64,000 nt of DNA, taken from the NCBI GenBank assembly GCA_944324405.1, contig CALUWF010000002.1:1-64000 (forward strand). The letters run 5' to 3'. Below the pieces are notes generated by a model. The model made no database searches and was not told where the DNA came from. It saw only the letters and a list, made by a program, of their open reading frames with translations. Of the stretch, positions 16,717 to 38,753 are shown piece by piece. The DNA comes from Candidatus Gastranaerophilales bacterium (GTDB lineage Bacteria > Cyanobacteriota > Vampirovibrionia > Gastranaerophilales > Gastranaerophilaceae). The position numbers and the translations under genes are program-made. The number at the start of each line of letters is the position of its first letter. The stretch's first letter is position 1.

Positions 16717-17742
16717 ATGGGAATGGCAGCAAGCCAAGCAAGATTTTTAGGTCTTACGGCTAGAAAAACTAACGTTGAATATGAAGGTCAACAAGTCAAC
16801 CAACAAAGGACGGTTCTCTCCAACGAAAGTGCCGGTTTGTTCAACCAGATGTTGGAACTTCAAGTGCCTACACCGCCAAGTGCAACTGATTATTACAACA
16901 CCCGCTATGTATTTGACTCGCTGGGTGAAGATTACTCCATTACGAAATTTGAAACGGCATCAGGCAGCACAACGGGCGGCTATAGCATTGTTCTTGAATA
17001 TTCGGAACTTGAAAGAAGGGCATATTCTTCCGTTCCGATAACCCAAGGAACACCTATGCAGTTCAATGATCAAACACCTACGTCAATATACCTCAACGGC
17101 CAACAATACGAAATAACCCCTGCCGATGCAACAGGTATTGATAAAGGTAATATTGAAATAATTAACGCGGCTATTATTGCAAACGATGCAACAAGACGCC
17201 CCGAGGAAGATACTTATTACAAATACACGGTAAATCAAGGTGAAACAGAAGAAAGAACATACTACATTTCTTCATACGATATCGCAAATGCAACTTTACC
17301 CGGAGATCCTTCCGAAATGTATACGGGCGGCTTAACTCAATACTTTGCGCAAGATGCAACGGTTAAAAAGAAAACAAACGCAACAGCTTCATTTGAAGCA
17401 ACTTCAGACGGCAGATTTGAATCCGTTAAAATTACATCTGTTGATAATGAAGACTTGAATGAAAAACTTGCCGGAAAAACTTTCGAACTTGACCTTACGC
17501 AAGTAGATGATACCGAAGGCTATGAAGCAGCCATGAAGGATTACGAATATCAAAAAATGGTTTACGAAAGAGCTATTCAAGACATAAACGCAAGAACGGA
17601 AATTATCCAACAACAAGACAGAACTCTTGAATTACGTCTAAAACAGCTTGATACCGAACAAGAAGCTCTTAAAACGGAAATGGACGCAGTTCAGGAAGTT
17701 ATCCAAAAGAACGTTGAATCAACATTTAAAACGTTCGCATAG
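16717..17742 (+). CDS. Unrecognised family protein with conserved N-terminal module and coiled-coil tail
   Basis: A 341-residue protein. The first 35 residues (MGMAASQARFLGLTARK, then NVEYEGQQVNQQRTVLS) look like a helical hook without a classical signal peptide. The middle (about 50-275) is Thr/Tyr/Asp-rich and probably beta-structured. The last 60 residues form a coiled coil (RTLELRLKQLDTEQEALKTE). The N-module and the coil reappear without the middle in the 107-residue product of 19112. I believe similar proteins occur as paralogs in Gastranaerophilales genomes, but this is from memory. The size plan (helical N-terminus, variable centre, helical C-terminus) recalls filament subunits and secreted components of flagellar or type III systems; that is only analogy. 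First gene of a four-gene cluster. Confidence 0.8.
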   Translation: MGMAASQARFLGLTARKTNVEYEGQQVNQQRTVLSNESAGLFNQMLELQVPTPPSATDYYNTRYVFDSLGEDYSITKFETASGSTTGGYSIVLEYSELERRAYSSVPITQGTPMQFNDQTPTSIYLNGQQYEITPADATGIDKGNIEIINAAIIANDATRRPEEDTYYKYTVNQGETEERTYYISSYDIANATLPGDPSEMYTGGLTQYFAQDATVKKKTNATASFEATSDGRFESVKITSVDNEDLNEKLAGKTFELDLTQVDDTEGYEAAMKDYEYQKMVYERAIQDINARTEIIQQQDRTLELRLKQLDTEQEALKTEMDAVQEVIQKNVESTFKTFA

Positions 17743-17754
17743 TAAAATCAACGA

Positions 17755-17788
17755 TTTGCACCATGTCAAATATCAGACATGGTGCAAA
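17755..17788 (+). promoter_or_regulatory. Strong intergenic hairpin without T run
   Basis: A perfect 13-bp stem (TTTGCACCATGTC and its complement) encloses an 8-base loop between the first two genes of the cluster. It is followed by A-rich sequence, so it is not a terminator on the plus strand. It may protect the upstream mRNA from decay or be a processing site, which would give the first gene more transcript than the rest. Confidence 0.7.
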
Positions 17789-17818
17789 AATAAAAAAGTA
17801 CACGAGGGTTAGTATCAT

Positions 17819-18640
17819 ATGGTTTCTTACAAAAACATGCACTCGCTGACAATAGCAAATAAATACAGTTCGGCAAGCTCCATTGCAAAGGCCGAGTTGT
17901 ATGAAACTTACGACAGATTGCGCGATTTGACCGTATCAAGCTCTGCATCCTCCGGCAGCGGCTTTGGCACCGCAGGCGGTTTTTTATGGCAGCTTGCAAG
18001 TATGTTTTCACCAAGTATCTTCATGCCTGTTATGGGCGGTACAAATATGATGAACATCCCCGGTACCTCTTATTGGTCGCCGATTACAGGCTCAACAGCT
18101 TCTTATGATGGTGCCACATCTGCTTTCGGTATAGGTGATTTAGGCTCTTACCCCGGATTTCCCTCGGGTGCTGCGGGGATTACCCTTGGTTTTGGCTCTG
18201 ACGGCGTTGCAACAGGCGGCGCATCGGGAGTGGCAACAGGTTATGCCGTAAGTTCGGCGGGAATTGCCGCAATGAATACTGCTTCTGCCGCTTTGGGCAC
18301 TGCATCCGGCGGTTTTAGCTTTGGCCAAAATATAGTCTTGCCGCTTGCAGGTATGATTTCAGGCTGGGGCGGCTTATTGCAGGCAATGTCGCCATATATG
18401 GGCGAATGGGGCTTAGGCGCAATTGTTGCCGGAAACCTGATGCAAGGCACAGGTAACGCAGCCGTAAGCGCATATCAAAATGTCACGGGAAGAATTACAT
18501 CAAACGCGGATGTAATTTTATCAGACAGGGTTAAAAACATAGAAACAGTATGCAAAATGTTGGATACCCAGGCGGATATCGTAAGAACAACTCTTAAAAA
18601 CGATATTGAATCCGACCAAAAACTCGTTCAGGATTTATAA
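17819..18640 (+). CDS. Gly/Ser/Ala-rich unrecognised protein
   Basis: A 273-residue protein with a helical N-terminus (about 1-40, SLTIANKYSSASSIAKAELYETYDRL), a long Gly/Ser/Ala-rich centre with small hydrophobic patches (about 42-210, for example MFSPSIFMPVMGG and ILPLAGMISGWGG-like runs), and a helical C-terminus (about 225-273). There is no signal peptide. The composition suggests an exported or envelope-associated structural protein or an amphipathic pore-former. It lies 76 bases after the 16717 gene, beyond the intergenic hairpin, in the same orientation. GAGG precedes the start by about 12 bases. No family is recognised. Confidence 0.72.
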   Translation: MVSYKNMHSLTIANKYSSASSIAKAELYETYDRLRDLTVSSSASSGSGFGTAGGFLWQLASMFSPSIFMPVMGGTNMMNIPGTSYWSPITGSTASYDGATSAFGIGDLGSYPGFPSGAAGITLGFGSDGVATGGASGVATGYAVSSAGIAAMNTASAALGTASGGFSFGQNIVLPLAGMISGWGGLLQAMSPYMGEWGLGAIVAGNLMQGTGNAAVSAYQNVTGRITSNADVILSDRVKNIETVCKMLDTQADIVRTTLKNDIESDQKLVQDL

Positions 18641-18760
18641 TATTTTTGTAAACTTTTGTAAAAGTTTTAAAATTAAAATAAAGTTTTGCATATTGCTTGT
18701 CGATATAAAATACTGTCATAGACAGGTTTTTAAGGATATTAATTTTAAGGAATAAAAACT

Positions 18761-18833
18761 CCCTAAACCTTTCGATGGCAATTTTATCTCAAATTATGTT
18801 TTTATTAGTTTAGGGTTACCCCTAAAAAAGGAG
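18761..18833 (+). promoter_or_regulatory. Leader with two mutually exclusive hairpins before a ribosome-binding site
   Basis: GTTTAGGG (18808-18815) can pair with CCCTAAAC upstream (18761-18768), or its TTTAGGG part can pair with CCCTAAA downstream (18820-18826) across a 4-base loop. The second hairpin sits right against AGGAG (18829-18833), which serves the GTG start at 18841. This is the layout of a translational switch. Confidence 0.5.
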
Positions 18834-18840
18834 TAAGCTC

Positions 18841-19110
18841 GTGCAACAAAGTATCCAAACAAATCTAAGAAGAATGAAAAATTTTCTGGGATTTTCAAAA
18901 AGCTTTCTAATCAGAAAAAATCCCTTTAAACTTTTCTCGAAAGAATTTGTAACGATGCTTAAAAATTTCTTTTCAATGAACAAGAAAAGGAAAATGGTGA
19001 AGTACAGATTGAATTATCAGCTCTACAAGCTAAATCAAATGGAAAAACTAATCGCACAAAACAACGAGCATGTATTCCTCAGGGGAAATAAATTCAACGA
19101 AATGAGATAA
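18841..19110 (+). CDS. Small basic protein of unknown function
   Basis: An 89-residue, strongly basic protein with many Lys, Arg, Asn and Phe and no hydrophobic segment long enough for a membrane helix. The start is GTG 18841 because AGGAG lies seven bases upstream; an internal ATG (residue 12) has no such support. It ends one base before the next ATG, so the two are translationally coupled. The charge suggests binding to nucleic acid, phospholipid headgroups or an acidic partner. No family is recognised. Confidence 0.65.
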   Translation: MQQSIQTNLRRMKNFLGFSKSFLIRKNPFKLFSKEFVTMLKNFFSMNKKRKMVKYRLNYQLYKLNQMEKLIAQNNEHVFLRGNKFNEMR

Positions 19111-19111
19111 A

Positions 19112-19435
19112 ATGGGCTTAATCTTATCAACAATCAGATTAATACAACTAAACAGCATGAGGCTTAACCTTGAATACAAACTTATGCTGATTAACACTTC
19201 GCGCCTGCAATTATCAACTTCAACGGGTGACCTTGAAACTCTGGGCAGCGATTTAGACCCGGATTCACCCGAATCAAAGGCACTGCAAAAGCGGATGGAA
19301 CGCTTAAGGGTTGTTGAGCAAAGACTTGAAGAACAGGCACAAAGATATCAAATTCAACTCAAAATGATTGAAAGTGAAATTCAAAGCGTTAACTCTTCGA
19401 TTGATTCAAATATTCAGATGGCATACGGCAGATAA
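19112..19435 (+). CDS. Short coiled-coil protein sharing its N-module with the 16717 product
   Basis: A 107-residue protein. Its first 35 residues align without gaps to the 16717 product: shared Met1, Gly2, Ser6, Arg9, Leu13, Asn19, Glu21, Tyr22, Asn28, Arg31, Leu34 and Ser35, with many conservative matches between. A short Asp/Pro linker (LGSDLDPDSPES) leads into a C-terminal coiled coil (RVVEQRLEEQAQRYQIQL, then MIESEIQSVNSSIDSN) that resembles the coil at the end of the 341-residue protein. It is thus a minimal version of the same family. Last gene of the cluster, closed by a strong terminator. The function is unknown. Confidence 0.75.
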   Translation: MGLILSTIRLIQLNSMRLNLEYKLMLINTSRLQLSTSTGDLETLGSDLDPDSPESKALQKRMERLRVVEQRLEEQAQRYQIQLKMIESEIQSVNSSIDSNIQMAYGR

Positions 19436-19466
19436 AAAGCGGGTTACCAACCCGCTTTTTTATTTT
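19434..19466 (+). terminator. Rho-independent terminator of the 16717-19435 cluster
   Basis: A 12-bp stem (AAAAAGCGGGTT with its complement), a 3-base loop and a T-rich tail start immediately at the stop of the last gene. Confidence 0.92.
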
Positions 19467-37778: not shown

Positions 37779-38753
37779 ATGAAAAAACGTTATAATGCCT
37801 GGACAATGGCGGAACTTGTAGTTGCAATGCTTGTACTTGCAATTCTTATGACTTTATCAATTCAGGCAATTAAACCCAAAAAAATAAAAACTCTTCCCTT
37901 CGCCTATGCAGCGGTTAAAAACTTAAATGACGCCGCAAAATACGTGCTTGGGGATAAAAACGTAAAAAATCTGCCCGACGGCCCGATTAGTACACCTGCC
38001 GCAAATTCAAACGAAACATGCGTCGGCATGGCCGAGGCAATGAGCCTTCTTGATGATTACAACTGTGTCAAAACATACAACTCGGCACCCGCAAACGGCA
38101 GAGGAAAGAAAGGCAGCCCGAATTTTCAAACCGCAAATCTAATATCGTATTCCGGCCTGCAAAAAGATTTTACATCAACCTACCGCGGTACGGCATCCAA
38201 CGCAGGCAAATGTGCAACCGTTGCAGTTGGCATGAAAGACATTATGATAGATATAGACGGCGATGACGGCGAAAACAAAGTGGGAAAAGACCAATTCCCC
38301 ATTAAACTTTTGCAGACGGGCGAAGTTGTACCCGGAACCTGCACAAATATATCCCCGGGCACAACTCCCTCTGAATGCGGCGGCGCATCATTCAGCAATC
38401 CGACTTTTACAAAGCATCCAAGCTGCGGAAGCGTTACAACAATGTTTATAAATGAAAAAGAACCCTTTGCATACTCGGTATACAGATCACGCCCGGTAAC
38501 CGAAGAGGAAATAGCTTCGGGTAAATATAGATCTGATGACAGGATTACCGAGGTATTGAGAATTGATGATGAAAGCAAAGTTGAAATAAGTTTTGCGGAA
38601 GCAGACTGCATTGCAAGAAACAACGTATTAACAAGAACCCAGTGTGCAAAACTCGGCTACAAACCCGAACCTGAATGCACAGATGACGGCGCCTTTTGCC
38701 TCGTAAGACAATCAAGGCCGCTTTCAATGAACATTTTTGCACTGCCTTATTAA
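37779..38753 (+). CDS. Type IV pilin-like protein
   Basis: A 324-residue protein with a class III (prepilin) N-terminus: short basic leader MKKRYNA, then WTMAELVVAMLVLAILMTLS as the hydrophobic helix. Glu sits at +5 if cleavage is after Ala7, so the usual Gly at -1 is replaced by Ala. The rest is a long secreted globular part with six or more cysteines (for example CVGMAEAMS, NCVKTYN, ECGGASF and ARNNVLTRTQC). It probably is a minor pilin or pseudopilin exposed at the surface. It is much longer than major pilins. A bidirectional terminator follows. Confidence 0.82.
   Translation: MKKRYNAWTMAELVVAMLVLAILMTLSIQAIKPKKIKTLPFAYAAVKNLNDAAKYVLGDKNVKNLPDGPISTPAANSNETCVGMAEAMSLLDDYNCVKTYNSAPANGRGKKGSPNFQTANLISYSGLQKDFTSTYRGTASNAGKCATVAVGMKDIMIDIDGDDGENKVGKDQFPIKLLQTGEVVPGTCTNISPGTTPSECGGASFSNPTFTKHPSCGSVTTMFINEKEPFAYSVYRSRPVTEEEIASGKYRSDDRITEVLRIDDESKVEISFAEADCIARNNVLTRTQCAKLGYKPEPECTDDGAFCLVRQSRPLSMNIFALPY

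Follow-up and report, generated by a model that had tools for sequence, protein, structure and literature searches.

A new family of proteins with a predicted flagellin-like build and a second flagellum-type export apparatus in the Gastranaerophilales

The locus described here lies in the window, that is, the whole stretch of 64,000 nucleotides that was analysed, which belongs to a 1.8-Mb genome that is 99.6% complete. The organism is a gut bacterium related to the cyanobacteria but without photosynthesis. Positions 16717-19435 hold four consecutive genes on the + strand, which we call P1, P2, P3 and P4 (Table 1). All four open reading frames, including those of the Gly/Ser-rich P2 and the small basic P3, are located where a first-pass annotation of the DNA had placed them. 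Elsewhere in the window, positions 37779-38753 encode a prepilin-like protein with an N-terminal pilin signal, a kind of protein that is abundant in this genome.

Table 1. Positions of the genes, protein modules and RNA elements of the cluster in the window
Feature	Positions	Strand	Description
P1, 341 aa	16717..17742	+	N-helix aa 2-47, beta domain aa 60-264, C-helix aa 266-340
P1 N-terminal helical module	16717..16857	+	alignment motif MGxxASQARxLxLTARK...EY.GQQ.NQ.R
P1 variable insert	16894..17508	+	beta-rich domain in the model; missing from the 109-aa Vampirovibrio forms
P1 C-terminal helical module	17512..17736	+	motif D..LE..LKQLDTE...TE.D.V.KVI.KN...FKTF
Stem-loop in the P1-P2 gap	17755..17788	+	conserved in the genus, compensatory changes
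P2, 273 aa	17819..18640	+	Gly/Ser-rich hydrophobic middle flanked by predicted N- and C-helices (low-confidence model)
P2-P3 leader	18641..18840	+	conserved end GTTTAGGGTTACCCCTAA...AGGAG
P3, 89 aa, GTG start	18841..19110	+	small, basic and helical; conserved throughout the order
P4, 107 aa	19112..19435	+	insert-free member of the P1 family; a D-P-[DE]-S-P turn joins the two helical modules
Intrinsic terminator of the cluster	19434..19460	+	conserved

The RNA elements that the first-pass annotation had proposed fared differently. In the genus of the window, the hairpin between P1 and P2 is kept and shows compensatory substitutions, and the terminator that follows P4 is kept as well. The leader between P2 and P3, which had been called switch-like, does have a conserved 3' end, but no support for a riboswitch was found in it, and an Rfam search that included the leader returned no match. 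The promoter assigned to the cluster is no better than chance, since 10 sites were found vs 8.3 expected from shuffling.

P1 and P4 had been aligned without gaps over their first 35 residues, with twelve identical positions. All twelve were confirmed as stated, and the highest number reached in 200,000 shuffles was 11. The similarity extends well beyond this region: when the P4 family was compared with the short forms of P1 using hhalign, the two aligned over 106 columns (probability 99.5, E 5e-23), and iterated profiles started from P4 recover all P1 proteins along both helices. Judged by these profile comparisons, P1 and P4 are homologous from end to end, with a conserved and collinear N-module and C-module in each. 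What varies is the insert between the constant ends, which is absent from the minimal members and whose length otherwise varies within the order between a few residues and about 900 aa; Vampirovibrio chlorellavorus and its relatives have bare helix-turn-helix members of 109 aa. Besides P1 itself, the genome of the window encodes two clear paralogs of it and a 160-aa protein that is more distantly related. One species has an in-frame duplication of the beginning of P1 (MGMAASQARFLTMGMAASQARFLGL...; L203:9140-10201 and L017).

Searches of Pfam, NCBIfam and PDB sequences with P1-P4, and also with their alignments, returned only unrelated coiled coils, and by this measure the P1/P4 family is new, without a Pfam or NCBIfam entry. 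The inserts of ten family members contain no strong Pfam domain; some inserts match calcium-binding repeats of the TSP3 type, which are usually extracellular. P2 was considered as a further member of the family and rejected: hhalign detects no homology between P2 and P1/P4 (probability 5% or less), and the cross-hits in iterated searches were treated as coiled-coil drift.

The first-pass annotation had regarded the shared module as the mark of a protein family, and copies do occur elsewhere. All 39 related genomes contain P1-like sequences, mostly as paired matches to both ends of the protein, and P4 was found in 37 of them. In a sample of the phylum, 134 of 292 genomes have a P1-family match, 131 of them within the Gastranaerophilales, so that the family is essentially confined to this order. 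None of five genomes from a sister family of the class has a match, and the rest of the Cyanobacteria gave three weak matches only, which are not convincing. These are single matches to the P1 profile (E 1e-6 to 1e-7) in three 2.5-Mb single-contig genomes of one family outside the class (G123, G211 and G278; family f33), and they could be due to coiled-coil chance.

Several families of the order share the arrangement P1-P2-P3-P4, with the genes in this sequence and on the same strand. P2 is a single-copy gene present in 130 of the 136 genomes of the family and was used as the marker of the cluster; in one Vampirovibrionales MAG, two 109-aa members adjoin P2. Outside the genus of the window, a gene of 72-78 aa often lies between P2 and P3; its basic product (RLYIRS..., for example L091:10393-10623) is missing in the window. 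Also missing there is a protein of about 200 aa (MSxGVGKKIVEALK...; L079:11233-11868 and equivalents) that directly follows P4 on the opposite strand in several genera, in which it is conserved but belongs to no Pfam family.

An AlphaFold2 model of P1 (51 sequences; mean pLDDT 84.7, pTM 0.55) consists of an N-helix of 46 residues and a C-helix of 75 residues with a beta-rich domain between them, an arrangement that matches the flagellin topology of a variable beta domain between two helices. In a blind Foldseek search of this model against 350,542 PDB chains, the top match was an Azotobacter flagellar filament (E 3.8e-4), and ranks 1, 2, 3, 5, 7, 8, 9 and 10 were chains of flagellar filament, cap or junction proteins. 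Note that the TM-scores were low (0.1-0.2, with poor overlap), so that the matches denote likeness of topology only and not a confident superposition, and that viral fusion proteins with a helix-beta-helix build score as well. The P1 profile does not match the order's own flagellin profiles, and neither a Flagellin_N (PF00669) or Flagellin_C match nor profile homology to them was found in the P1 family. Homology to flagellin or FliE was rejected at the sequence level. Taken together, the flagellin-like topology and the unmatched profiles suggest a protein built like a flagellar axial protein, and the model places P1 close in design to a filament subunit while its sequence lies outside the flagellin family. 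The resemblance to secreted filament components suggested in the first pass thus holds for the predicted shape of P1 but not as sequence homology to flagellin. The structure model of P2 is unusable (pLDDT 39).

With flagellin and the hook-filament junction proteins (PF00669, PF00700), the P1 family shares constant end helices that could pair and that enclose a hypervariable beta insert, the occurrence of several paralogs, the lack of a Sec signal and the presence of a flagellum-type exporter in the genome. It differs from them in its sequence profiles, which show no homology, in the low TM-scores, in being kept where flagellin is gone (see below) and in the small size of its minimal members (109 aa). 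In the needle subunits of type III secretion systems (SctF), a turn that contains Pro joins the helices of a short hairpin, and P4, which has no insert, and the Vampirovibrio forms resemble them in general build. However, these forms are longer (107-110 aa), no needle family was found among the Pfam matches of P1, P4, the A1 members and the 160-aa paralog, and the associated exporter has flagellar rod genes.

P1 and P4 could instead form a cytoplasmic coiled-coil scaffold or cytoskeleton, with helices that pair inside the cell, in a family that grew by duplication and has no link to export. Neither protein has a signal peptide, and cytoplasmic coiled-coil proteins likewise lack one; the long helices, the weak Pfam matches, all to unrelated coiled coils, and the absence of flagellin homology would also agree with such a role. 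On the other hand, large and fast-varying beta-rich inserts between constant helices typify exposed filament subunits, and the TSP3-like repeats in some inserts, the flagellin-like topology and the linkage to a flagellum-type operon described below argue against a scaffold, which we consider somewhat unlikely.

Proteins of the FHIPEP family (FlhA/SctV) are encoded in all 39 related genomes and fall into up to three classes: a canonical FlhA1 encoded beside FliPQR-FlhB, a divergent full-length FlhA2, and a soluble protein that comprises only the cytoplasmic domain of FlhA. FlhA2 was found in 129 of the 136 genomes of the family. The remaining genes of this second set were assigned via Pfam or NCBIfam, with FliF, FliE, FliH, the rod proteins and the ATPase included where they could be traced. 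In G034, a genome of another family, the second system consists of one operon plus a gate locus (L210, L246). The operon encodes FlgF/G-like and FlgG-like proteins, FlgB, FlgC, a lytic transglycosylase, FliE, FliF, proteins in the position of FliG that have no Pfam match, FliH, FlhA2 and FliI, and the separate gate locus encodes a FliN-like protein, FliO, FliP2, FliQ2 and FliR2. In the genome of the window, the second system is split over three contigs (L207, L227 and L243; C3, C4 and C20). No FlhB was found beside the second FliPQR in the three genomes inspected at that locus.

FlhA2 scores 690 against the NCBIfam FlhA cut-off of 772, which FlhA1 passes with 860, and 597 against the SctV cut-off of 692. 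The flagellar proteins FlgB/C, FliE, FliF, FliH, FliI and FliPQR are all found in the second system; the definition of a non-flagellar type III secretion system (NF-T3SS) by Abby and Rocha (PMC3459982), which combines core genes and a secretin with the absence of flgB, flgC and fliE, does not apply, since FlgB, FlgC and FliE are present. As far as gene content and profile scores can tell, nearly all Gastranaerophilales possess a flagellum-type export apparatus that is separate from the motile flagellum and has a FlhA and a FliP of its own. The soluble protein of about 485 aa (L208:9706-11157, on contig C1 of the window's genome), which joins the cytoplasmic domain of FlhA to an N-terminal part of its own, has equivalents in 37 of 39 relatives and lies 7-10 kb from the second FliP in all 13 cases in which the two share a contig; it is probably part of the second export system.

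Flagellin was found above the cut-off in 32 of the 39 genomes. The seven others (G015, G016, G017, G020, G021, G023 and G036) encode a single FliP, in each case the second type, and no full-length canonical FlhA; they retain FlhA2, the rod proteins and, in every case, the P1 family. Flagellated genomes hold both sets together, with two FlhA and two FliP proteins. These observations bear on the idea that the ordinary motile flagellum uses P1 and P4 as accessory components; the flagellin-like topology and the fact that most of the order is flagellated could be cited in its favour. Because the genomes that lack flagellin, FlhA1 and FliP1 keep the P1 family, several of them with more matches than their flagellated relatives, this idea is largely refuted, and we give it hardly any credence.

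Earlier papers reported that gut Melainabacteria have incomplete sets of flagellar genes, which were described as cut back by genome reduction or as insufficient to make a flagellum (PMC3787301, PMC4040986) and were read as flagella that had been lost. If this inference of loss also covered the second set, the set would be the remnant of a decaying flagellum and would say nothing about P1-P4. This is very unlikely, as flagellated genomes hold the two sets side by side, and FlhA2 shows 78-100% identity within the family and 81% identity to the FlhA2 of another family, which indicates strong constraint. We found no description of a second flagellum-type system in gut Melainabacteria in the literature searched.

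The cluster and the second system are also linked on the chromosome. In 22 genomes from seven genera, P2 and FlhA2 are located on one contig, and in all 22 they are 7-18 kb apart, on contigs of up to 1 Mb. The usual order is P1-P2-P3-P4, a few unrelated housekeeping genes, such as those for dCMP deaminase and a purH-like protein, and then FliE2-FliF2-FliG2-FliH2-FlhA2. The cluster is also found 22 kb away from FliP2, another component of this system, in G029 and G034, which both belong to another family. Linkage at 7-18 kb is limited to the seven genera, which are probably related and may form one clade; in the genome of the window, cluster and second system are found on separate contigs. A few genomes lack both P2 and FlhA2; this was left out of the evidence because one missing contig would account for both. 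In a separate case (L008:9438-11048), a P1 paralog lies beside a dCMP deaminase gene, which in seven other genera sits between P4 and FliE2; this is possibly the trace of an older gene order.

A sister-order genome (G140), of which 1.34 of 2.2 Mb was sampled, contains flagellar-type FlhB, FliF, FliH, FliI and C-ring homologs with 23-36% identity, and no P1, P2, P4, FlhA2, FliP2 or FlgC2 was found in the sampled part. This result is consistent with the co-absence of the P1 family and the second system, within an incomplete sample.

The housekeeping genes in between and the restriction of the linkage to one group of genera might mean that proximity to the second system is an inherited accident and that the P1 family reaches the surface by another route, such as type I secretion or a type IV pilus; type IV pilus and TolC-type genes are indeed present in the genome. 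However, the same-contig distances are uniformly short for contigs of this length, the cluster in the other family is near another part of the same system, and no C-terminal signal of the type I kind is evident. In addition, gut types have been described as lacking a type I system (PMC3787301). Export by another route is therefore improbable in our judgement.

The explanation that we propose, and to which we assign about an even chance, is that P1 and P4 are secreted, self-assembling subunits of a surface filament or needle that is exported by the second, non-motile flagellum-type machine. The machine comprises FlhA2, FliO/P/Q/R2, the FliN-like C-ring protein, FliF2, FliE2, FliH2, FliI2, the FlgB/C/F/G-like rod and the lytic transglycosylase, and it would export subunits of the P1/P4 type through the rod without a Sec signal. 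As in flagellin and hook proteins, the paired terminal helices would then polymerise on the rod to form a filament, needle or cap, and the variable inserts, some with TSP3-like repeats, would face outwards to the gut. P2 may act as a partner or minor subunit or as an adaptor, and P3 may assist in the cytoplasm. An undescribed surface or secretion system had been suggested from the cluster itself; the near-universal and distinct export apparatus agrees with this suggestion, and we infer, at the strength just given, that the products of the cluster belong to such a structure.

Comparable systems are known. The filament-less basal bodies of Buchnera (PMC8109811) also retain the flagellar rod and export gate without flagellin, but the set described here is found alongside a complete flagellum in most relatives, includes divergent versions of FlhA, FliP and FliF that are specific to it, and is accompanied by a candidate substrate family. 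The NF-T3SS of Myxococcales (PMC3459982) is likewise a non-motility relative of the flagellar export system for which no secretin is reported; it lacks FlgBC and FliE, all of which are present here, and the same study defined NF-T3SS as being without flagellar rod genes. More tentatively, the second machine could represent a third kind of flagellum-type surface organelle, with a rod-bearing basal body and an external filament made of the new P1/P4 family, with its helical ends and its diverse inserts turned to the gut, spread across an entire order of animal-gut bacteria. It is possible, with similar reserve, that this organelle is neither a motile flagellum nor an injectisome and has been overlooked as 'degenerate flagella'.

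According to the data, gut Melainabacteria have two separate flagellum-type systems, one of which is conserved regardless of motility and is accompanied by candidate surface subunits. If the proposed explanation is true, widespread gut commensals would carry a new kind of surface appendage or secretion machine, and an independent non-motile branch, in which the rod is kept and no secretin is reported, would be added to the evolution of flagella.
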